Virus record (IMG/VR): IMGVR_UViG_3300035188_001379
Coordinates: 1 to 64,000 of that record
DNA from: a virus
Reading direction: 5' to 3' (one strand)
DNA: 64,000 bases
Below the pieces are notes generated by a model. That model was not told the DNA's origin and did no database searches. It worked only from the letters and a program-made list of their open reading frames with translations. Position numbers and translations under genes: made by a program. Numbering within the stretch: position 1 is the first letter of the stretch; each line of letters starts with the position of its first letter. This document shows positions 1-58,740 of the stretch, one piece after another.

Positions 1-1
1 A

Positions 2-1474
2 CACACGCCTCCTCCTCCTAAAGTACCGTTTATTTTTAATAAGTTCATTAGCCATCTTCAAGGAGCTGGAGTAAATGTAGTGCAGCAAGGATCTAAATTT
101 CACATAAAGCCTCAAACAGATAAAGACATTGTCGCACTCTCTCACGGCGAAATTAAAGAGCCTCTCAGCTACAAACTAAAGAAGGATAACCTTATCCCAG
201 AAGACGGAGGCCTGTTTGATCCTACAGTAGTAGGTATCCACGGTGATCAGTATAACCACATAGCTTTACATCATAGAATTCCGAATCCTATGTCTGAGGA
301 GCCCCTCAGAAAGCTGCTGAAGATGACCAAGGCCTCCTATGATGAAGCTGTCTCTTCTGGAGAGCTCGAAAAGAAACTCAAGTCTATCAATATAGACTCA
401 AAAATTGAGGAGCTTAAAAAGTTTATCGCTTCTCAACGCAAGTCAGGCAGAGACGATGCAGTAAAAGCTTTAAGTTTTTTGACCATGTTAAAATCTAATG
501 GGCTTACTCTAGATGACATGCTGTTGTCTAAAGTTCCTGTTATTCCTGCGCAGTACAGACCAGTTATGGCTCAAGGTGATCAGGTGCTTACCGCAGACAT
601 CAACGAACTGTATAAAGACCTCATGTTGGTCAACAGGTCTCTTGGGGAAGCTAAAGATCTTGAAGATGTCGACCCCGCACATATTCAAGCAGCTAAACGA
701 CAGATATACAATGGAGTAAAAGCTGTGTACGGACTTGGGGAGCCTATTCAGCAAAAGAGTGTAGAAAAAAGCTATAAAGGATTGCTCGCATCTGCTCTCG
801 GGTTGCAAGGAGGATCTGCCAAGGAAAGTATGTTTCAGGCAAAAGTTGTCAACAAGCCTATCGACCTTGTTGGTCGCGCTGTACTGCTGCCTGACTCTAA
901 CTTGGAGCTAAATCAATCCAGCATTCCTCAAAGCGTAGCATGGAGTATTTTCTCTCCTTTTGTCATCCGTAGACTTGTGAGACAAGGTGTACCAGCAACA
1001 AAAGCTAGAGAGTATTTGGATAACAAGCATCCACTAGCCTTGGCTGCTCTCCACGAAGAAATGGCAGATCGCCCAGGCATCGTTACAAGAGATCCTCAAC
1101 TCTCGAAATACAACTTTCAAGGGATGTATCTAAAAATGAACCCTGATCCTAAGGATTTCAGTATAAAACTAAATCCCCTGGTGTTTAAAGGTTATGGCGG
1201 AGACAGCGACGGAGACCAGTTAAACGTGCAGTTACCTGCCTCAGAAGAAGCCAAAGAAGAGGTTAAAGAAAAGCTACTTCCTGAAAAAAATCTAATATAT
1301 CATCGGACATTTAGCCCGATATACACCCCTTCTAATGAAGCAGCCACAGGCTTGTTTGCAGCCTCCTTTGAAGACAAAAAGAATACGCCAGTTAAGTATA
1401 ACTCTGCTGACGAAGTTGTGCGTGACTTTATTGCAGGCAAGCTCGACATTGGTGATCGCGTAGACCTACCTTAA
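2..1474 (+). CDS. RNA polymerase beta-prime subunit, N-terminal half (partial, left edge)
   Basis: This would be the catalytic half of a multisubunit DNA-dependent RNA polymerase. The frame is open to the window edge, so the start is missing; a GTG at 80 is internal. About 490 residues are visible. Residues 401-405 read DSDGD inside GGDSDGDQLNVQLP, the counterpart of the NADFDGD metal-binding loop, with all three catalytic Asp kept and Phe replaced by Ser. Just upstream, TRDPQLSKYNFQG matches the NRAPTLHR region, and downstream IYTPSNEAATGLF matches the usual IVPSQD-LGLY stretch. The protein ends about 85 residues after the catalytic loop, whereas bacterial beta-prime continues through the bridge helix and trigger loop; that part is encoded at 2997-4847. 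Splitting of beta-prime is known from phiKZ/AR9-type jumbo phages. The beta subunit is not in the window. Confidence 0.88.
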   Translation, partial: HTPPPPKVPFIFNKFISHLQGAGVNVVQQGSKFHIKPQTDKDIVALSHGEIKEPLSYKLKKDNLIPEDGGLFDPTVVGIHGDQYNHIALHHRIPNPMSEEPLRKLLKMTKASYDEAVSSGELEKKLKSINIDSKIEELKKFIASQRKSGRDDAVKALSFLTMLKSNGLTLDDMLLSKVPVIPAQYRPVMAQGDQVLTADINELYKDLMLVNRSLGEAKDLEDVDPAHIQAAKRQIYNGVKAVYGLGEPIQQKSVEKSYKGLLASALGLQGGSAKESMFQAKVVNKPIDLVGRAVLLPDSNLELNQSSIPQSVAWSIFSPFVIRRLVRQGVPATKAREYLDNKHPLALAALHEEMADRPGIVTRDPQLSKYNFQGMYLKMNPDPKDFSIKLNPLVFKGYGGDSDGDQLNVQLPASEEAKEEVKEKLLPEKNLIYHRTFSPIYTPSNEAATGLFAASFEDKKNTPVKYNSADEVVRDFIAGKLDIGDRVDLP

Positions 1475-1504
1475 ATACTCTTTATTATTATATTCTTTTA
1501 AGCT

Positions 1505-1705
1505 ATGCTTGATGAACAATTATGGTTAACCTTGAGCGACGAAGATAAGATTGAGGAAATTCAAACTTGTTTAGACCAATTACTAGCAATAGACCACGGA
1601 CAACACGAATTTTACGGCTCCAACTTACAAGGACGCTTGGTAGCTGTTAAGAAAGAGCTTCAAGATAGACTTTTTAACATTATAGATATAGAAAACGCCA
1701 TATAG
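1505..1705 (+). CDS. Small acidic hypothetical protein
   Basis: A 66-residue protein lying between the two polymerase halves, 30 nt after the first and ending 1 nt before the next gene. It is rich in Asp, Glu, Gln and Leu and looks helical throughout, with no cysteine cluster, signal peptide or membrane segment. The ATG at 1505 follows an A/T-rich gap (TTATTATTATATTC) with no clear ribosome binding site. Because it is co-transcribed with polymerase genes it could be an accessory factor, but nothing in the sequence shows this. I do not recognise a family. Confidence 0.6.
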   Translation: MLDEQLWLTLSDEDKIEEIQTCLDQLLAIDHGQHEFYGSNLQGRLVAVKKELQDRLFNIIDIENAI

Positions 1706-1706
1706 T

Positions 1707-2582
1707 ATGAAAATCGCTGAATTACTTGAAAACTACCGAAACTTAGACAAAGGAGCAAAGCCTGCGAAGTTTAAAGCAGCTTCACAGAAGATTGCTTTTG
1801 TCCCTAATCCAGAAATAGCCGCACAGCAACAGCAGCAACAGGCCGCCGCGCAGCAACCCGCCCCTCCTCAAGGAGCCCCTCAGCAGCAACAGATGCCTCC
1901 CCAACAACCGATGCCACCACAAGGCGCTCCTCCCGATCAGCAGGCAATGCCTCCTCAAGGCCCTCCACAGCAACCAATGCCACCACAAGGAGGCGCACCT
2001 CAACAACAGCAGATGTCCCCTCTTCTGCAAGAGCTCATGATGGCTGTACAGCAGCTACCACCTGAAATACAACAGCAAGTAATGCCGTTAATTCAGCAAA
2101 TCATGAGCATGCCACCAGAGCAGAGCGAGCAATACCTACAGTCCCTACTTCAACAGATGACAGCTATCCAGCAAGGACAAGGGGCACCTCAGCAACCAGG
2201 AATGGAAGCACAGGCCCAAGAAATGATGCTTGGTGGAGAACTTTCTCCTGAAGCCTATGCAGAACAACCAGCGCAAGATGAAGCTTCGCAAGAGGCCGAG
2301 AATGCTGAAGCTTCGGCAATTGAAGCTAAAAACGAATTAGATAATGTTCGAGTGAGTTTGACTGTGCGCGAGCTGTTAGACTTGATAGGTAAAGGGTCAG
2401 CCACAGCTTCTTTGCTGAAAGTTAAACAATTAGCTGACTCCCATAAGCAGAAAATGGAGCAAATTAAACAAAAAACCGAAGCAGATCAAACTCAGAAAGC
2501 TCAACAGCAGGCTGATCAGCAAACCTCAATGATGGGTGGAGGCATTTATCCTTCACCTATGGATGCTGGGGCCGCCCAATAA
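1707..2582 (+). CDS. Pro/Gln-rich low-complexity protein
   Basis: A 291-residue protein of three parts. Residues 1-35 are basic (AKPAKFKAASQKIAF). Residues 36-150 are dominated by irregular repeats of PPQGAPQQQQMPPQQPMPP type. The C-terminal 100 residues are charged and probably coiled-coil (KQLADSHKQKMEQIKQK). No enzyme motif is visible. The low-complexity middle would be disordered, so a linker or virion filler role is possible. Codons in the repeat vary (CAA and CAG mixed), so it is not a recent nucleotide-level expansion. The gene sits 1 nt after its upstream neighbour, between the two polymerase halves, and therefore shares their transcript. Function unknown. Confidence 0.7.
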   Translation: MKIAELLENYRNLDKGAKPAKFKAASQKIAFVPNPEIAAQQQQQQAAAQQPAPPQGAPQQQQMPPQQPMPPQGAPPDQQAMPPQGPPQQPMPPQGGAPQQQQMSPLLQELMMAVQQLPPEIQQQVMPLIQQIMSMPPEQSEQYLQSLLQQMTAIQQGQGAPQQPGMEAQAQEMMLGGELSPEAYAEQPAQDEASQEAENAEASAIEAKNELDNVRVSLTVRELLDLIGKGSATASLLKVKQLADSHKQKMEQIKQKTEADQTQKAQQQADQQTSMMGGGIYPSPMDAGAAQ

Positions 2583-2586
2583 GTGT

Positions 2587-2997
2587 ATGGGAGACTTCAC
2601 AAAACTAGCAGCCTACTTAGAGTCTTTCGATAAAGACTCTCCAGGCTATGACACGGCATGCTTCATAAAAATGAAGATCGCTCAAGATTTGCAAGACTCC
2701 TCCACCGTCAACAACGGAGATGCAGAAGAACTTGAGGACAACGACATCACCATGGCTACTCCTGAGCAGCAAGCTCAGAATAATGTCGAGGGAAAGGAAA
2801 TGGCTGGAGCTTTTGCTGAGTTTGATGTTTTGAATAAACTCAAAGAAGAGAAGGAAGAGGTACGTATGCCTGACAAAAAAGACTCTGCAGGTAACACCGG
2901 ACTAGATGTCTCCACAGAGGAAGCTTTTGGAGATAACGTACAAAACCAAAAGCAAGCTTCGCTGTATTCTGTCCTCTTGAATAGACTTAAAAAATAA
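2587..2997 (+). CDS. Hypothetical acidic protein between the polymerase halves
   Basis: A 136-residue protein. A longer frame begins at 2536 inside the preceding gene, but ATG 2587 (MGDFTKLAAYLESF) gives a clean start 4 nt after the upstream stop. The body is acidic, with many Glu, Asp and Gln and a basic C-terminus (SLYSVLLNRLKK). It carries three Lys-x-Ala triplets (KLA, KIA, KQA) like other internal virion proteins in this window. Its TAA overlaps the ATG of the polymerase C-terminal gene by one base (TAATG), which implies translational coupling. No family recognised. Confidence 0.6.
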   Translation: MGDFTKLAAYLESFDKDSPGYDTACFIKMKIAQDLQDSSTVNNGDAEELEDNDITMATPEQQAQNNVEGKEMAGAFAEFDVLNKLKEEKEEVRMPDKKDSAGNTGLDVSTEEAFGDNVQNQKQASLYSVLLNRLKK

Positions 2998-4847
2998 TGG
3001 CTACCACAACAGTAGGGCGGGTAGTATTGAAGTTTTTTACTCCTGCACAATTCCATCATTTAATCGAAGATGCGGTGCTCGATAAAAAAGGCATCGCCAA
3101 GCTTTTTGCGGAGCTTGCCGAAAAAGCCCCTAACGAGTATTCAAAAATTGTATCTGACCTTACTCGCGCAGGTTTCGAGATCGCTACTAGACAAGGCACT
3201 TCTCTTACTTTAAGCGATCTGGTTTCGCCTGTAGACAAGGATAAACTATGGGATGAGTTTGAAACTTTCAAAACAGCCGTAGAGGCCGGTAAAGAGCATA
3301 AATCTGTTAAAGACCATAAAATTTTTGAAAAGTACAACACGATGATGTCAAACATCGAAAAAGAGATTTTGGCTAAAGGCTTAGCCAACAATCAGTCTTT
3401 GGCCAAGATTGTACTCGCAGGGTCTAGAGGTTCTCCAGCTCAGTACAGAGGCACGATAGCTACACAGGGTGTGGTTGTTGACGCTGAAGGGAAACCTAAG
3501 ATGGATATTCCAATTAAAAGTTCTTATGCTGAAGGATTGTCTCTCCCTGAATATCTCACCACTTCATTTGGTACACGATCCGGTGAAGTTTTAAAAAAAA
3601 TCTCAGTAGCGCAAGGAGGCTATGGAAGCAAACAGTTTGCTCGAGCACTAATGCCTCTTCAAGTTGTAGAGGCTGACTGCGAAACCCTGAACGGTATAGA
3701 CGTATCCATTGAAGACAGAGAGTCCGTTGGCGCTTTTTTAGCTAAAGCTGTAGGTAGCTATAATCGCAATAACGAGGTTACTTTAAAAATGCTGAATGAT
3801 TTGCATCACAAAGGAATCAAGCAAATCAATATTAGGTCATCGATGACTTGTCAGTCGAATAAAAAGCACCACTCAGGAGGGCTTTGCCAGATGTGTGTAG
3901 GCAAGAGAGAAAAGGGTATGGCAGCCATGGATAGCTACATCGGACTCGTTGCAGGTACAGCCGTAGCAGAACCTCTCACGGAGAGCGCGATGAAAGCCCG
4001 TCACTCAGGAGGAGCGGCCACCAGTCTTGGAGGGCAGCAAGGGTTTAAATTAATTAACCAGCTTGCAAATATTCCCAAAACCTTCGTAGGCAAAGCCCCA
4101 CTAGCTCAAGAAGACGGTATTGTCACAAAGCTTACTCCAGCAGATGCAGGAGGGCATTTCATTTCCGTTAATGACGAAGAGCACTATATAGGCATGGACC
4201 AAACCCCCAAAGTGACACTCGGGGAGCGCGTAGAGCAGGGGCAGGCATTAAGCACAGGACTAGTTGATCCTCGTGAAGTGGTACAGTATCGAGGAATAGG
4301 CGACGGTAGAAAATATTACATGGAGGCCATGAAAAAAGCCTTTGATGATAGTGGCCTGCCTGTAAACAGACGAAATTTTGAGCTGATAGCCAAAGCAGCT
4401 ATCGACCACGTAAAAATTACCGATCCTGAAGGCATAGGAAACTACCTACCTGACCAGGTAGTAAGTTATTCAGCTATTGAAAAAGATTATCAGCCCAGGG
4501 CATCTGCTAAGATGATGCGCACTGATCTAGCTTATGGAAAATACTTAGAAGAGCCTAAGCTGCATTATTCCATTGGAACTAAAGTAACCTCGGCGGTAAT
4601 AAAACATTTAAAAGAACATGAAGTGGAGGCTGTGCTAGTACATGAGCAGCACCCCAAATTCGAGCCTGTAATGGTGCGTCTTGTAGATGTACCTGAACAC
4701 CACGACGACTGGATGCATGTATTAAATAGTACTAACCTAGCCAAAAGGTTTGTTAATATGGTAAATAAAGGAGCTACGTCTGACACGCAAGGCTCTAGCC
4801 CTATACCAGGCCTTGCTTATGGCGTTGGCTTTGGTAAAAAGGATTAA
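2997..4847 (+). CDS. RNA polymerase beta-prime subunit, C-terminal half
   Basis: A 616-residue protein carrying the rest of beta-prime. Cys228 (in VEADCET), Cys285, Cys297 and Cys300 (GLCQMC) match the four-Cys zinc site of bacterial RpoC. They are followed by a bridge-helix-like segment (DSYIGLVAGTAVAEPLTES) and a trigger-loop start SAMKARHSGG at about residues 330-339. Met332 and His336 correspond to the Met and catalytic His of the bacterial TMRTFHTGG; the Arg is replaced by Lys. The C-terminal part (LVHEQHPKFEPVM) is less clear. With the first gene of the window it would form one complete active-site subunit. The gene lies just before virion genes, so late expression or packaging in the particle is possible but inferred. 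Confidence 0.87.
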   Translation: MATTTVGRVVLKFFTPAQFHHLIEDAVLDKKGIAKLFAELAEKAPNEYSKIVSDLTRAGFEIATRQGTSLTLSDLVSPVDKDKLWDEFETFKTAVEAGKEHKSVKDHKIFEKYNTMMSNIEKEILAKGLANNQSLAKIVLAGSRGSPAQYRGTIATQGVVVDAEGKPKMDIPIKSSYAEGLSLPEYLTTSFGTRSGEVLKKISVAQGGYGSKQFARALMPLQVVEADCETLNGIDVSIEDRESVGAFLAKAVGSYNRNNEVTLKMLNDLHHKGIKQINIRSSMTCQSNKKHHSGGLCQMCVGKREKGMAAMDSYIGLVAGTAVAEPLTESAMKARHSGGAATSLGGQQGFKLINQLANIPKTFVGKAPLAQEDGIVTKLTPADAGGHFISVNDEEHYIGMDQTPKVTLGERVEQGQALSTGLVDPREVVQYRGIGDGRKYYMEAMKKAFDDSGLPVNRRNFELIAKAAIDHVKITDPEGIGNYLPDQVVSYSAIEKDYQPRASAKMMRTDLAYGKYLEEPKLHYSIGTKVTSAVIKHLKEHEVEAVLVHEQHPKFEPVMVRLVDVPEHHDDWMHVLNSTNLAKRFVNMVNKGATSDTQGSSPIPGLAYGVGFGKKD

Positions 4848-4919: not shown

Positions 4920-7166
4920 ATGCGCAACTCTACTTTACCGAAATACGCCGCAGACGACCAGATCGAGGGAGCTTTTTTTCAATTAGCCTATCAGAGGCTG
5001 CAAGATACCCTTAAAAACCTCATCCCATATTTGGTCGGGTTTGAGATTGTTAAAAAGAATGAAGACAACACCAAGGCTTTAGGTGTCTTCGGTTTTCGCT
5101 CTCAGTCAGGACAAATTTTGTTTGTTCCTGCATTTTTTATTAACGGCAAGGTAAAGAATCTTGATCTTCTGTATAGCAAGAACAACGAGCAGTTCTACCC
5201 GCTGAATGAAGACTTCGCTGAGATGTTCATTAAAGATGAGCTCTTAGGCTTAGGAGAAAACTCAAAGCAGCAAAGAGCTGATATTATGCGCGACGCCACT
5301 CAAGGCGACTACCGCCAAATGAGTGTTCCTCCTCGTACAGGACGCTACGCGATTGCTTCAGTTATAGACTACGTAAAAGATGGAGATAACTTAACAAAGC
5401 AGGCATTCACTAATTTGATTGAGGAAAATGCAGACTTTTGTGAGTCTGTCCTTCGTTTTTATCCTATAGAAAAAGTGGCGGAAGCTATTAAGCTCGAGGA
5501 TGGCGACAAGTACCGCAAAGGCGATAAAGGGGCTAAAAAAATTGACTTAGTTAAAGTCGTTAAGCCTACAGATAAAGATGAAGTAAAGAAACTTACCGAT
5601 CACGATAAGCAAACGCTGCTCACCCAAGGTTACGTTATTGTTGATGACCGCGAGGAAGGACAAAAGTCTTCTTACGGAGCTGTGGACTATATCAAGAAGT
5701 TCACCAATCCTACCGAATCCGGCTTCTACTCTTACATCACAAAGCTTGGAGGCTTACGCTACGGCTTGCTAATCGTGCGTCCTAAGCAGCTGCAGCAAGA
5801 CTTCGCTACGGATGATACACTTGTAATTGATTTGGACAGTAAAGAGGGAAACACTTACGTACGCGACCATAAGCAGGTCTTTATTAAAGATCAGATCAGA
5901 GTACAAGACTACTCAATCGTACACAAGATGATGGTTGACCCGGCAGAAGCCCGCCCAGGATATTCTAATGTTTATATTCTGATTAATGAGAATCTTAAGG
6001 CTACGCAACCCTTCCGGATTAATGCTAATTTTAAAGATGCCTCAGGTATTCGTCGTATTAGCGTAGAGCCTTGCACAGAGTATTGCGGGTGTGATTCCTA
6101 TCGTTCTGGTCCAAAAGATCGTCCAGGAAGCATTCATGATCTGCCTCGCGGCAATTTCTATGAACACCCTAAAAAATTGAGCGAGATCATGCTTGTCATG
6201 ACCAAGAAGCAAGGAGACCGCTTTGAGTACAAAGACAAATCTCTCTATGTCCCAGGCGGGTTTAAACTGCTCAAAATCAATCCTACAAAGCAGCATTTTG
6301 GAGAAACTTGGTATCCTTCTGACGGGTTATCTAAAAAAGATAAGGAAGACCAAGACAAGCGCAAGAGAGACCAGGAAGCAGAGAAAGAAAAGTACTTGAG
6401 AGGAGAACCAGGCTCTCCAAGCACTCTTCACGGTATTTTACGCGACAAGAATATTCTGCCGATGAATGTGCATACAAACGGCAGCGAATATTTTGTAGAT
6501 ATCAACGGAGCTAAAAAGAAGTACGATGACCCTCTCCAAGCAAAGATCGCTATGGTTGTTGACTTGGGGCTAGACCAGAAGGTTGCCTCAGAGCTGCTCG
6601 ACTCTTTGGTTCCGGGTTTTACAAAGAAAGGCCATATCAAACTAGCGTACACCGGAGACATCTATCCCCAGCCTTTTGAAGAGCAGCCCTATGTTAATGA
6701 GTTCGGTCAAAATACCTATGTTGGGGTAGGGCAGGAAAACACGCTACCTACTATGGATAGCTACACAGGCAATCCTACAAGACAAGACCTAGGGACCATG
6801 CCAGAGATCAAGGGGGTTGATCCTAAGTATGTGCAACAAGCGATTGAGTTGGCTCAGAACGGGCAAAAAGAAATCTTTGATACTCATATGATCGGAGCAT
6901 TGGCTAAGTACGTGGGTGTTGGGGATAAAATTGCCGAATACCTTCCTTCGCTAGTCGAATCCATGGACCGTCTCGGGCGTATTTTGTTTTTGCTTCACTG
7001 GGAAACAGATAAATTCAAGGAAATGTATGGTCGTGGAGACCTGCCTGCTTTAGTAGAGCTTGTCACTAACGTGTTTAAAAATACCGGAGACCTGGTTATC
7101 TTCTTGAAGAGGAAGTCGCCAGAGTTATCCATCAACATGACAAAGGCAGATAACTTAGATTTATAA
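4920..7166 (+). CDS. Large virion-type protein, unknown
   Basis: A 748-residue protein with its own promoter. The N-terminal 110 residues look mixed alpha/beta. A charged Lys/Asp/Glu-rich stretch (KDKEDQDKRKRDQEAEKEK, about residues 475-495) looks like a disordered linker, and the last 120 residues look helical. A short Cys cluster (CTEYCGCD, near residue 385) could bind metal. I considered a portal protein because of size and position but see no supporting motif. Several Lys-x-Ala triplets (KYA, KQA, KVA) link it to the head-region proteins. It is followed closely by 7176. Probably a structural or injected protein; exact role unknown. Confidence 0.65.
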   Translation: MRNSTLPKYAADDQIEGAFFQLAYQRLQDTLKNLIPYLVGFEIVKKNEDNTKALGVFGFRSQSGQILFVPAFFINGKVKNLDLLYSKNNEQFYPLNEDFAEMFIKDELLGLGENSKQQRADIMRDATQGDYRQMSVPPRTGRYAIASVIDYVKDGDNLTKQAFTNLIEENADFCESVLRFYPIEKVAEAIKLEDGDKYRKGDKGAKKIDLVKVVKPTDKDEVKKLTDHDKQTLLTQGYVIVDDREEGQKSSYGAVDYIKKFTNPTESGFYSYITKLGGLRYGLLIVRPKQLQQDFATDDTLVIDLDSKEGNTYVRDHKQVFIKDQIRVQDYSIVHKMMVDPAEARPGYSNVYILINENLKATQPFRINANFKDASGIRRISVEPCTEYCGCDSYRSGPKDRPGSIHDLPRGNFYEHPKKLSEIMLVMTKKQGDRFEYKDKSLYVPGGFKLLKINPTKQHFGETWYPSDGLSKKDKEDQDKRKRDQEAEKEKYLRGEPGSPSTLHGILRDKNILPMNVHTNGSEYFVDINGAKKKYDDPLQAKIAMVVDLGLDQKVASELLDSLVPGFTKKGHIKLAYTGDIYPQPFEEQPYVNEFGQNTYVGVGQENTLPTMDSYTGNPTRQDLGTMPEIKGVDPKYVQQAIELAQNGQKEIFDTHMIGALAKYVGVGDKIAEYLPSLVESMDRLGRILFLLHWETDKFKEMYGRGDLPALVELVTNVFKNTGDLVIFLKRKSPELSINMTKADNLDL

Positions 7167-7175
7167 TCTAGTCCT

Positions 7176-8135
7176 ATGCCTGACGAAGATCAATCTAGCT
7201 CCTACCTGGAAAGGTTGGCTGCTTTAGACTTACTACGTGAGAACATTCTTTTTTCTCAGCCTAGTAAGCTGAATATCTCAAATTCTTTGGAAGACCTGCC
7301 TGGCGTGTTTAGATCAGCTGCCCCGCTAACCAAAAACATTGTTCCTTCTGCAGCCATTATTTCAAAAGATCCAGAAGAGCGCCAAAAACAGATTAACGAC
7401 GCTATAAAGAAAATAAAGGCTTCCAAGAAGTCTAGTAAATCCTTAGGAGACGAAATAACTCATAATGTGTATAACTTAGGAGTTAAGGCATTACCTCTCA
7501 GCTTTTTACTTAGCTCTGCCTTTCATATAGCCTCTCCTAGAAACCCATTTTTCAATGGGACTCTTAGATCTCCTATAACCCCTATTAAAAATATTAAAAA
7601 ACTTTTAGATAGTCCTCGCTACAGAGGCTACCTAGCCAGAAGCGCAGCAAAAGATTCTTTAATAGGTGCAGGGATGGGAGCAGCAGCAGGCGCTATTTAT
7701 CCCATAGTTTCAAACAAGGTGGACCCTTCAGATAAGGCGCTTGAGGAGGCCGCCACAATAATGCAAAACGAGCCTTTGCTTACTAGCTTACCTCCGGCAG
7801 AAGCCCTTAGCGCGATGCGCAACGGACCCAGTTCTGAGCCTATAAATAAATTAAAAAATGTTGCAATAGGTGCCGGTACTGGCTTAGGCTTTGGAGCGTT
7901 AGGATCCTTGTCATCGACAGGAATAAAAGCTTTAGGATATGGTGCAAGTAATCTGTATCGTAAGCTGACTGGGCAAGAATTAAATAAAAACGTCTTAAAA
8001 AGGCTTTCGTCAGGACTACTAAAAGATCTCAAAGTCACTTTACCTCTTGGTGCAGGATTGGGGGCCGTTTCTGGCTTAGCTACTAAAAATTTAAGTGATT
8101 ATGACCAGCAAAAAACTGACACCGATCAGACTTAA
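7176..8135 (+). CDS. Gly-zipper virion-type protein
   Basis: A 319-residue protein. The N-terminal half is polar. The C-terminal half has three small-residue, membrane-like segments of glycine-zipper type: LIGAGMGAAAGAIYPIV near residue 165, AIGAGTGLGFGALGSL near 230, and LPLGAGLGAVSGLA near 290. Such GxxxG segments favour helix packing in membranes. In a head-gene setting this suggests an internal protein that acts on the host envelope during DNA entry, but that is inference. It overlaps the next gene by about 35 nt. No family recognised. Confidence 0.6.
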   Translation: MPDEDQSSSYLERLAALDLLRENILFSQPSKLNISNSLEDLPGVFRSAAPLTKNIVPSAAIISKDPEERQKQINDAIKKIKASKKSSKSLGDEITHNVYNLGVKALPLSFLLSSAFHIASPRNPFFNGTLRSPITPIKNIKKLLDSPRYRGYLARSAAKDSLIGAGMGAAAGAIYPIVSNKVDPSDKALEEAATIMQNEPLLTSLPPAEALSAMRNGPSSEPINKLKNVAIGAGTGLGFGALGSLSSTGIKALGYGASNLYRKLTGQELNKNVLKRLSSGLLKDLKVTLPLGAGLGAVSGLATKNLSDYDQQKTDTDQT

Positions 8136-55898: not shown

Positions 55899-57028
55899 AC
55901 AACCCCGCATTGATAGGTAACAATTTCTATTCAAGTCCGGCGTCTGTATCGAACACACATATAGAGTACATTTACAACAAGCTTTTTCATTGCGTACCTA
56001 CTAGATTAGACTTTGCTGACGAGTTTGCTACAAGCTGTCTGGACGTTATTCCGCAGTATTTTGATACGTTCACTTCTTTAATTAACAAGGTAGATACACA
56101 TTTCCTCGAAGAGACTGTATGGATAGGTAAGCCTGGTACAGAGTATGAGCAAGCGATCATCGGTGTAGCCTTCAAGTCTCATGAGAGCAGTATGCCTTTT
56201 AATGTTATAGGCTATCCTCCAAGGACTATAGATAAAGAATTCTTATCTAAGATGTATGTGGGGCTCAAGGCTGTTGTGCGAGATCGCGAGCAAGCCGCAC
56301 TCATATCAAAATTACTAGACGCGCATGTGCTAGAGAAGTGCAGTAAAATGTACGTGTTGTCTAATACTTATGGAGAGCTCAGCCTTTCTGCGCTGCCTAT
56401 AGATAAAATCACTCCAAATATCGCATTAAATTATGGCGACGATTTTGTCAGCGTAAATAACAATATTCTTGAAAGCTTGAGCAATGAGAAGTCAGGGCTG
56501 TACCTGTTCCATGGCGAACCCGGTACAGGTAAGAGCACCTATATTAAATACCTTTGCTCAGGCATATTGTCTCGTAAAATCGCATACATTCCTGTGGGGT
56601 TAATCTCGGCGCTCACATCCCCAGACATGCTTCCTCTTTTGATGGAGCATAAGGATTTGATTATTGTGATAGAAGACGCTGAGCAAGCCTTGATAGCTAG
56701 AGACACAGCCTCAGCAAATTCCCATGTTGTGAGCACTATTCTAAACCTCACAGATGGTTTCCTCGGTGACGCTATGAACACCACCATAGTAGCCACATTC
56801 AATACAGGAAAAGAAAATATTGATGAGGCTCTTTTACGCAAAGGCCGCCTGCGCGTATGCCATGAGTTCAAGAAGCTTTCTATAGATCAAGCCAAGAAGC
56901 TCGCCTCATCTATAGGTCAGGACGAGAATAACGTTACTGAAGGCATGTCTTTGGCTGATATCTACTATATGTCCGCCAATTCCCCTGAATACGCTAAAGA
57001 GGAAGAGCGGCGGGTAGGGTTTCACTAG
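55886..57028 (+). CDS. AAA ATPase
   Basis: A 380-residue ATPase. Walker A is GEPGTGKST (about residue 210), Walker B is LIIVIEDAE (about 258), and a sensor-type stretch TTIVATFNTGKENIDEALLRKGRLR holds the presumed arginine finger. The layout resembles BCS1/FtsH-class AAA proteins. The N-terminal 200 residues form an unknown domain. Likely a remodelling or unfolding motor. The reading frame ends in CTAG, where its stop overlaps the stop of the convergent terminase gene. Confidence 0.8.
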   Translation: MHPLNNPALIGNNFYSSPASVSNTHIEYIYNKLFHCVPTRLDFADEFATSCLDVIPQYFDTFTSLINKVDTHFLEETVWIGKPGTEYEQAIIGVAFKSHESSMPFNVIGYPPRTIDKEFLSKMYVGLKAVVRDREQAALISKLLDAHVLEKCSKMYVLSNTYGELSLSALPIDKITPNIALNYGDDFVSVNNNILESLSNEKSGLYLFHGEPGTGKSTYIKYLCSGILSRKIAYIPVGLISALTSPDMLPLLMEHKDLIIVIEDAEQALIARDTASANSHVVSTILNLTDGFLGDAMNTTIVATFNTGKENIDEALLRKGRLRVCHEFKKLSIDQAKKLASSIGQDENNVTEGMSLADIYYMSANSPEYAKEEERRVGFH

Positions 57029-58740
57029 ACCTCAGGAGCTGCTGAGGAGCTAGGACCCAGCAGCCCAGAATCCCCTACAGCCATATAGGCGGCGCAAACA
57101 CAGAATACCAAACTGTGCATTGCGTCGTCTGGCTGTTTAGGGTGATGGTCGTATATAAGCTCTTGCCCATACAAACCGTCTCTTACCTCTACGAATATAT
57201 TCAACAGGTCTTGCATATACTCGGAGACATCACCCCACTGCGGAAAGAGTATTTTTCCTGCTTTGAGCTGTCTGATGACTAGCGAGATAACGTCAGAGCG
57301 ATGCAAGACCCAGCGATTCTGCCTCCAGTCATAAACCCCAGCCTCAAAATGCTGAATCATTTTGGTTCTTCTGTAGGCAGCAAGTTGAGACCTGCTAGGG
57401 CTTGTTAATTCGCATAGTTTGATACCGCGAATAGGATCAGGCCCGCTATCAGATACGCAGAAAGCGTTAACCGCGTTAGCTTTTTCTGCGATGTCTCTGA
57501 TATGCGCCTCATGGTCAAACCCTCGGTACACTTTAGCCATGATGATTTCAAATACCCCGTCAGCTCGCATACCTCCCAAGGTAGCCACTGTACGAGACTG
57601 CGCCATACTTACTCCCCAATCGACTCCCATGGTATACAGTCTGTATTCGCTTTTTCTTTTGTTTAATATCGTTAAATTATTGCTATTACCGCCCTCAAAT
57701 TGCGGACCAAGTGTGCATAGCTTCACCAGCTCTTCTTGTGATATAGGTTTTGACCCTATGTCATAGGTTAATCCGAACGTTTCATTCATCACCACACGGA
57801 TCTCATTCTTACCGCTATGCACTTTCTCATATATTTCCTTCCACTCTTTAGGGTCCTCGTTGAAGTGAGGCAAAAGAGGCTGAGCTAGATGATAGCCTGT
57901 GATTAAATAGTCGCTAGGATTGCAGCTCACCCATTCTCCTTTTCTGGAGTCTAGGCGGGCTAGGCACTTAGAGCAGCTTAGTCCGTGGGGCTGCACCATT
58001 CTTAGCGGCTCGTTACCTTCTGTTAAACTATTCCAGTGTGTACACTTTTCACACTTCATCAGCCACTCGAGCTGATTCGAGCTGCGCCACATTCTATGAA
58101 TAGTATTTGTAGAATCTAGTGGCGTACCTGCAAATATTTCCCGCTTGTAAGGACTCATGGCCATAGTTTCCTGGATAATCGGTATTTGATCGTACTGAAT
58201 ATCCTGGATTTCGTCATAAACGACGCAATCTATAGCCGGTCCGCGAGTACGGGTAGCATCATCACTAACATATCTAAATAACACACTACTATGCGTATCA
58301 TCCAATATTTTTTCAAAGACATCATTTTTAAACCATCCTTTCAACAGCAAATTTTTAATTTTTGGGCTCTCAAACCTAGGGGGTATATAGTTACTTGAAA
58401 AATACTTCGTAGTTAGCTCCTGAGGCCCGACATACATCATTTTGAAATAATTCCACCGAATAAGATTTAAACATACAAAGTTGCTGAGCAGCGTAGACTT
58501 GAGTGTTTTACGGCTGCATTTAAGCAACAATTTCTGAGGCATGTTGTCATAGATATGCTTCAGCATCGGGAAAGCTTCCAGACTTTGCAGTCTACCCTCG
58601 TTATCGTAGAGAAAGTTCTCGACGAAATGCGACGGAGGCAGCACCGAAAACATCAGTTGTCGAGCGAGGAACGTGCTTTTGGGACTATTCTTCTTAAGCA
58701 GTTTCTCTATAGTAGACTTAATTTCATCATGGGCCGTCAT
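57025..58740 (-). CDS. terL: Terminase large subunit
   Basis: The 571-residue DNA-packaging motor and nuclease. The ATPase part has a Walker A-like KCSRKTLKST (74-83) and Walker B VVYDEI (173-178, Asp176 and Glu177). A zinc-ribbon-like C230xxC233 ... C256xxC259 follows, as in GpA-type terminases. The nuclease begins MGVDWG (371-376), with an acidic SDSGPD motif and a C-terminal DDAMHSL as further metal ligands. It is encoded opposite to nearly all other genes; the stop overlaps the stop of the AAA ATPase gene in a CTAG palindrome, and the start overlaps a small divergent frame by 12 nt. Confidence 0.88.
   Translation of the reverse strand: MTAHDEIKSTIEKLLKKNSPKSTFLARQLMFSVLPPSHFVENFLYDNEGRLQSLEAFPMLKHIYDNMPQKLLLKCSRKTLKSTLLSNFVCLNLIRWNYFKMMYVGPQELTTKYFSSNYIPPRFESPKIKNLLLKGWFKNDVFEKILDDTHSSVLFRYVSDDATRTRGPAIDCVVYDEIQDIQYDQIPIIQETMAMSPYKREIFAGTPLDSTNTIHRMWRSSNQLEWLMKCEKCTHWNSLTEGNEPLRMVQPHGLSCSKCLARLDSRKGEWVSCNPSDYLITGYHLAQPLLPHFNEDPKEWKEIYEKVHSGKNEIRVVMNETFGLTYDIGSKPISQEELVKLCTLGPQFEGGNSNNLTILNKRKSEYRLYTMGVDWGVSMAQSRTVATLGGMRADGVFEIIMAKVYRGFDHEAHIRDIAEKANAVNAFCVSDSGPDPIRGIKLCELTSPSRSQLAAYRRTKMIQHFEAGVYDWRQNRWVLHRSDVISLVIRQLKAGKILFPQWGDVSEYMQDLLNIFVEVRDGLYGQELIYDHHPKQPDDAMHSLVFCVCAAYMAVGDSGLLGPSSSAAPEV

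Follow-up and report, generated by a model that had tools for sequence, protein, structure and literature searches.

The stretch of DNA analysed here, the first 64,000 bases of the 184,465-base virus record IMGVR_UViG_3300035188_001379 (the window), opens inside a gene of a phage-encoded RNA polymerase (RNAP) whose predicted core is made up of four polypeptides: the N-terminal part of beta (beta-N), its middle part (beta-M), a chain in which the C-terminal part of beta continues into the N-terminal part of beta-prime (beta-C/beta-prime-N), and the C-terminal part of beta-prime (beta-prime-C). We consider it likely that these four chains form a single, active, cell-like enzyme of the two-barrel type, which would lack alpha, be directed by a phage sigma factor, be packaged in the virion and derive by fission from a fused ancestor.

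An earlier note on the window had recognized two open reading frames (ORFs) for parts of beta-prime with three small genes between them, and this was borne out by the ORFs themselves, by Pfam and by phmmer searches of the PDB. The first ORF (2-1474, plus strand, 490 aa, open at its 5' end) corresponds to the N-terminal part of beta-prime, and its product matched bacterial beta-prime chains of the PDB at 4e-36 and the Pfam families Rpb1_2 (7.2e-15) and Rpb1_1 (1.8e-10). The product of the second (2997-4847, 616 aa), from which the SI3 insertion is absent, matched bacterial beta-prime chains at 1.2e-35 and Rpb1_5 at 1.3e-13. PHROGs agreed with Pfam and the PDB on both identities, so that sequence comparison confirmed a homology to beta-prime far above chance. 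The cut, which the note had placed between the catalytic loop and the bridge helix, does fall there, opposite residues 551-569 of Escherichia coli RpoC and after the double-psi barrel. Its remark that the two halves lie close together and are followed by virion genes was also correct.

The reading of the first product as a beta-prime half has to be abandoned, as the gene is incomplete in the window. The record ends (184259-184465) in a copy of its first 207 bases that differs from them by one mismatch. The sequence can thus be closed into a circle of ~184,258 bases, and the start of the window is an assembly cut inside the gene. Across this junction the ORF extends upstream in frame to an ATG at contig position 182736, and the joined frame encodes 998 aa with no stop. 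The first half of this chain is C-terminal beta (PF00562, E = 2e-46, contig 183027-184115) and the second half is beta-prime-N, with the DSDGD motif. Furthermore, an unbroken homologue of ~1000 aa occurs within single contigs of eight relatives (loci L012 and L014-L020), and the fusion is therefore independent of the joining of contig ends. The first gene of the window is thus predicted to encode beta-C fused to beta-prime-N, and not a beta-prime half.

The note had also advised looking for beta just upstream, and in fact beta-C lies there in frame, while tblastn with the fused chains of phages Arash and D69 located the missing parts of beta in the same genome (Table 1). In the circularized genome, beta-M and beta-N are encoded ~7-15 kb upstream of the fusion gene, on different strands, the pieces being spaced 5 kb and 7 kb apart. 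Alignment puts the cuts opposite E. coli RpoB ~344, RpoB ~622 and RpoC ~551-569. The four pieces (220, 230, 998, and 616 aa) add up to 2064 aa, against 2131 aa in Arash (1525 + 606), which suggests a clean fission with no domains added. Each RNAP segment is present in a single copy in the 184-kb genome.

The residues expected of a working enzyme are retained. The DSDGD aspartates align with E. coli RpoC D460, D462, and D464, and the residues of beta-prime-C that the note had singled out, C228, C285, C297, and C300 and the trigger-loop H336, align with RpoC C814, C888, C895, and C898 and with H936, as it had supposed. According to the same alignment, the equivalents of beta-prime R352, R425, and R731 are present together with the three aspartates, the second zinc site and the H936 equivalent; on the beta side the equivalents of R678, E813, D814, K1065, K1073, R1106, and H1237 were found. 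The hallmarks of two-barrel RNAPs, namely the DxDxD triad and both beta-barrel lysines (the K1065 and K1073 equivalents), are therefore there, and both lysines sit in the beta-C part of the 998-aa chain. With the catalytic residues of beta and beta-prime both on this chain, the core of the active site would be covalently one molecule. The first zinc ribbon (C70-C88 of RpoC) is absent from this enzyme and from the relatives compared. The unusual DSDGD proved to be real: the middle residue is serine in five of the eight close relatives checked, cysteine in two and asparagine in one, versus tyrosine or phenylalanine in distant relatives.

The four-piece layout is not peculiar to this genome. Nine IMG/VR records have a beta-prime-C that is ~80% identical to the one described here, and seven of these nine carry beta-N and beta-M as separate ORFs (72-75% and 83-87% identity, respectively), the other two ending before the position of the small beta pieces. 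A scan with beta-N added five records: L063 and L064, which have all four pieces in the same order and orientation (60% identity in beta-N and 68% in beta-prime-C); L058, with beta-C, beta-N and beta-M; and the short contigs L060 and L062, with beta-N and beta-M. Altogether some ten IMG/VR records besides this one have the layout, with identities down to 60-68%. Within the close clade the ratio of nonsynonymous to synonymous changes (pN/pS) was 0.11-0.23 for every piece, with synonymous sites saturated; it was 0.14-0.18 for beta-prime-C against its relatives, and it rose to 0.40 when beta-N was compared with that of the more distant L063. These values argue for strong purifying selection on all four ORFs.

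By its sequence the enzyme belongs to the lineage of the Salmonella phage Arash (gp206 and gp216; OQ632216; PMC10585845) and the Vibrio phages D69, D181, and D148, and it is much nearer to cellular RNAP and to Arash and D69 than to phiKZ. All of these phages share a chain that joins beta-C to beta-prime-N, a separate beta-prime-C with the cut opposite RpoC 551, a nearby homologue of the structural protein gp218 and a genome of ~180-187 kb. With Arash our phage also shares a homologue of the sigma factor gp10. The difference is that in Arash and D69 all of beta is in the fused chain, giving two core chains (1525 and 606 aa in Arash), whereas here beta-N and beta-M are separate. Arash gp206 (L009:12037-16614) is annotated as beta only, although beta-prime-N, including the DxDGD triad, makes up its C-terminal third, and the passages of the Arash paper that deal with its RNAP make no mention of a catalytic beta-prime half in gp206 (PMC10585845).

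Profiles of the five RNAP segments, run on 30 viral loci, revealed how varied this lineage is. The majority of the distant relatives have all of beta and beta-prime-N in one chain (~1460-1560 aa) with beta-prime-C apart. In locus L027 (5666-11911) beta and beta-prime are both complete within a single chain of 2082 aa, making this a one-chain, cell-like phage RNAP; the corresponding chain of L041 is incomplete. L028 shows an additional cut within beta-prime-N, and a short beta-prime-N ORF of similar kind lies close to the locus edge in L026 and L038. In all the forms that could be clearly resolved, beta-C remained joined to the start of beta-prime.

To place the four-piece form, a tree was built on beta-C, beta-prime-N and beta-prime-C with three cellular references (E. 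coli, Staphylococcus aureus, and Enterococcus faecalis). The phage forms, Arash and D69 included, make up one clade apart from these three references on a 100/100 branch, and the four-piece clade (also 100/100) is nested among the fused phage forms. This nesting persisted in a second tree that omits the very long branch of Cobetia phage Carin-5, and a topology with the four-piece clade outside all fused forms was rejected by the approximately unbiased (AU) test (p 0.0098). The tree thus supports an origin of the four-piece form by fission of beta after beta and beta-prime-N were already one chain. On the wider view, RNAPs of one chain (L027, L041), of two chains (Arash), of four chains and of a further-split kind (L028) coexist in a single lineage, and it seems somewhat more probable than otherwise that the four-chain form arose by fission of a fused ancestor. 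Carin-5 itself (L068) has a distant RNAP with an uncut, separate beta (927 aa) and beta-prime (1083 aa) directly beside a sigma gene.

Regarding partners of the core, the 210-aa sigma homologue encoded in the window matched Arash gp10 at 4e-15 (phmmer), Pfam Sigma70_r3 at 1.1e-8, the PHROG for sigma at 4.6e-9 and SigB of the PDB at 1.4e-6. The genome gave no match to the sigma region 2 family PF04542 or to the alpha family PF01193, and it contains no homologue of gp196, the second sigma of Arash. The 748-aa protein encoded directly after beta-prime-C matched the Arash locus at 1e-12 and D69 at 7e-12 (phmmer) and has matches in most relatives; throughout the lineage a gp218 homologue is found near beta-prime-C. 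According to the data on purified virions given in the Arash paper, gp206 was detected with 3516 spectra, the most of all proteins, gp216 with 1210, gp218 with 1149 and the sigma gp10 with 467 (PMC10585845). Its authors also consider another explanation, namely that enzymes of this sort are carried over owing to their abundance (PMC10585845).

Taken together, these data suggest how the enzyme could work. The 998-aa chain would carry the catalytic residues of both barrels as a one-molecule core, which beta-N, beta-M and beta-prime-C would complete with the jaws, fork, bridge helix and trigger loop. The covalent link between beta and beta-prime may take over the role of the alpha dimer in assembly. 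The phage sigma homologue would probably direct the RNAP to phage promoters and, by analogy with the Arash proteomics, core and sigma would be packaged together in the virion and transcribe the early genes after injection. The enzyme is thus most likely an RNAP without alpha that is packaged in the virion and serves the early phage genes, a proposal drawn entirely from sequence.

Several observations weigh against this interpretation or parts of it. The predicted structure of the fusion chain is modest (predicted local distance difference test, pLDDT, 68.5; predicted template modelling score, pTM, 0.39), and residues 900-916, around DSDGD, have a pLDDT below 50. A fold search with this model matched beta chains at ~1e-25 and, among the hits listed, the alignments are to beta chains. 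Because the model is too weak near DSDGD, the case for the beta-prime barrel is one of sequence and not of structure. For beta-N no Pfam match was obtained; the structure predicted for the beta-N of a relative (pLDDT 82.5) matched the N-terminal domains of RNAP beta at ~1e-9, with template modelling (TM) scores as low as 0.3-0.4, and its identity is taken from this fold match and from its alignment to fused relatives. Long branches (L021, L027) leave the exact sister group of the four-piece clade unsure. The packaging proposal derives from homology with Arash virion proteins at 28-32% identity, and the sigma homologue is a candidate promoter-recognition partner by its presence, not by an observed contact.

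The earlier note had likened the split to that of phiKZ-type polymerases, and our enzyme could be regarded as an independent member of the class of virion and non-virion RNAPs of nucleus-forming jumbo phages. Part of the comparison stands, since both enzymes have beta-prime cut past the catalytic barrel, in a region that is also the site of the cut in cyanobacteria (PMC7598289), and phiKZ-type virion RNAPs likewise have beta in three pieces (PMC7598289; PMC7824862). Beta and beta-prime are split in both groups and neither has alpha. However, phiKZ-type enzymes are split and not fused, have no known sigma and usually come in two sets (PMC7598289; PMC7824862), whereas here beta-C and beta-prime-N are on one chain, a sigma homologue is present (none has been found in phiKZ-type phages; PMC7824862) and there is a single RNAP set with no pair of virion and non-virion paralogues. 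The three beta pieces are not the same ones either, because the C-terminal extension is the third protein of the phiKZ-type virion enzyme, while in our enzyme the C-terminal part of beta has remained attached to the barrel and runs on into beta-prime. The sequences are also more distant: no phiKZ or AR9 chain was among the best 60 PDB matches, the closest relatives of the enzyme are Arash and D69, and S. aureus phage MarsHill (annotated versus AR9) matched the beta-prime-C profile at 1e-17, compared with 1e-100 and beyond for most members of the lineage. Given the fusion, the sigma, the single set and the sequence distance, we rejected membership of this class, which we regard as very unlikely.

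Fragmentation of beta could instead be a sign of decay into an inactive polymerase, and the loops do depart from the consensus (GGDSDGD for NADFDGD and TRDPQLSK for NRAPTLHR). Against this, the three aspartates, both lysines and the equivalents of R425, R731, and H936 are retained, purifying selection on the four ORFs is strong with synonymous sites saturated, and the same layout is seen in about eleven records, so we find decay improbable. An assembly or sequencing artefact, in which the breaks in beta would be frameshifts or misjoins, is suggested by the start of the window at a contig end inside a gene, but it is scarcely credible for pieces that are separated by 5 kb and 7 kb and do not all share a strand, that keep their order and orientation in independent contigs of different metagenomes and whose genes end at the same homologous positions. 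Joining of the pieces at the protein level, by split inteins for instance, might also give an enzyme of fewer chains. Inteins do occur in these genes elsewhere in the lineage: L022 has an intein-like insert of ~350 aa (~3648-4760; LAGLIDADG 1e-5) in the fork region of beta at RTPE, the equivalent of ETPE, and L024 an intein of ~490 aa (6652-8124; Intein_splicing 2e-5, LAGLIDADG_3 3.4e-13) directly after the catalytic DYDGD of beta-prime. Nevertheless, beta-N, beta-M and beta-C of the four-piece clade have no intein-like extensions and their lengths match those of the uncut relative; with inteins confined to L022 and L024, split inteins were discarded for this clade and rejoining is highly improbable.

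The active four-chain enzyme that we favour can also be compared with other systems. The phage polymerases called mReC (Weinheimer and Aylward 2020) are likewise cell-like beta and beta-prime in tailed phages that stand apart from cellular homologues in the tree, and they may be relatives of the four-piece enzyme. Their selection required hits to both beta and beta-prime with a length of at least 800 aa and with NADxDGD, and phages whose beta-prime is spread over different genes were left out (PMC7481178); judged on motif and length, ours differs in having GGDSDGD and a beta-prime in two parts. Cyanobacterial RpoC1 and RpoC2 are cut in the same inter-domain region of beta-prime, but they belong to a cellular enzyme with alpha and an intact, separate beta. 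Both catalytic barrels are on one polypeptide in crAss-like gp66, YonO, and QDE-1 (PMC10770324) as well, although these are highly divergent single-subunit enzymes, whereas here three more core chains are present and the similarity to bacterial beta and beta-prime is clear. We found no description of a four-piece phage RNAP or of one with beta-C fused to beta-prime-N in the literature, our coverage of which was partial, so this is weak evidence.

Table 1. Coordinates of the RNAP genes and of associated features in the window and in the rest of the record (contig).
Feature	Position	Strand	Characteristics and evidence
Terminal direct repeat	1-207		Recurs at contig 184259-184465, one mismatch
Fusion gene, 3' part	1-1474	+	Beta-prime N-terminal half: clamp core, double-psi barrel motif GGDSDGD; ORF, Pfam and PDB matches
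66-aa protein	1505-1705	+	Between both RNAP genes; kept in close relatives
291-aa Q/P-rich protein	1707-2582	+	Between both RNAP genes; kept in close relatives
136-aa acidic protein	~2587-2997	+	Between both RNAP genes; likely ATG start; kept in close relatives
Beta-prime-C, 616 aa	2997-4847	+	Bridge helix region, second zinc site (C228, C285, C297, C300), trigger loop with H336
Arash gp218 homologue, 748 aa	4920-7166	+	Directly after beta-prime-C
Sigma-70-family protein, 210 aa	37417-38049	+	Homologue of Arash virion sigma gp10
Beta-M (fork/Rif region), ~230 aa	contig 169648-170340	+	tblastn; Pfam Rpb2_3 8.7e-6
Beta-N (protrusion side), 220 aa	contig 175348-176010	-	tblastn; full-length alignment to the start of fused chains

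Among the small genes between the two RNAP genes of the window, the 291-aa product has a weak match to a PHROG of minor head proteins (0.015), and the stop of the 136-aa gene overlaps the start of beta-prime-C (2997). Between the beta-M and beta-N genes, contig 171230-173617 (minus strand) encodes a 795-aa protein with many near-identical repeats of ~40 aa that contain cysteines, possibly a fibre or decoration protein. Most virion genes lie on the other strand from the gene for the large terminase subunit (57025-58740, minus strand; GpA_ATPase 9.3e-9). The same phage also has a cobalamin adenosyltransferase (Pfam 6e-38) near a ribonucleotide reductase of the B12-dependent type, with a dCMP deaminase adjoining (contig 165225-165776 and 167017-168867, both minus strand), and a homologue of the MYG1-family exonuclease (PF03690, 1.5e-51; contig 165804-166868, plus strand).

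Finally, beta and beta-prime are among life's most conserved proteins, and how freely they can be cut and joined bears on the assembly and evolution of RNAP. The clade described here cuts beta twice and scatters the pieces over two strands, yet it keeps both catalytic barrels on one chain. Annotations such as that of Arash gp206 as beta only conceal a catalytic beta-prime half, and filters based on motif and length leave such enzymes out of surveys. Relatives of the clade with one, two or more chains form a natural series for asking whether the split state of phage RNAPs is a primitive trait or a derived one, and whether the alpha dimer can be replaced as a scaffold for assembly by a covalent link between beta and beta-prime. 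It has been proposed that split phage RNAPs are relics from before the last universal common ancestor (LUCA) that were later fused (PMC7824862). If the four-piece form did arise by fission, this lineage could be explained without that proposal, and it would become possible to test how little covalent connection a two-barrel RNAP can do with.

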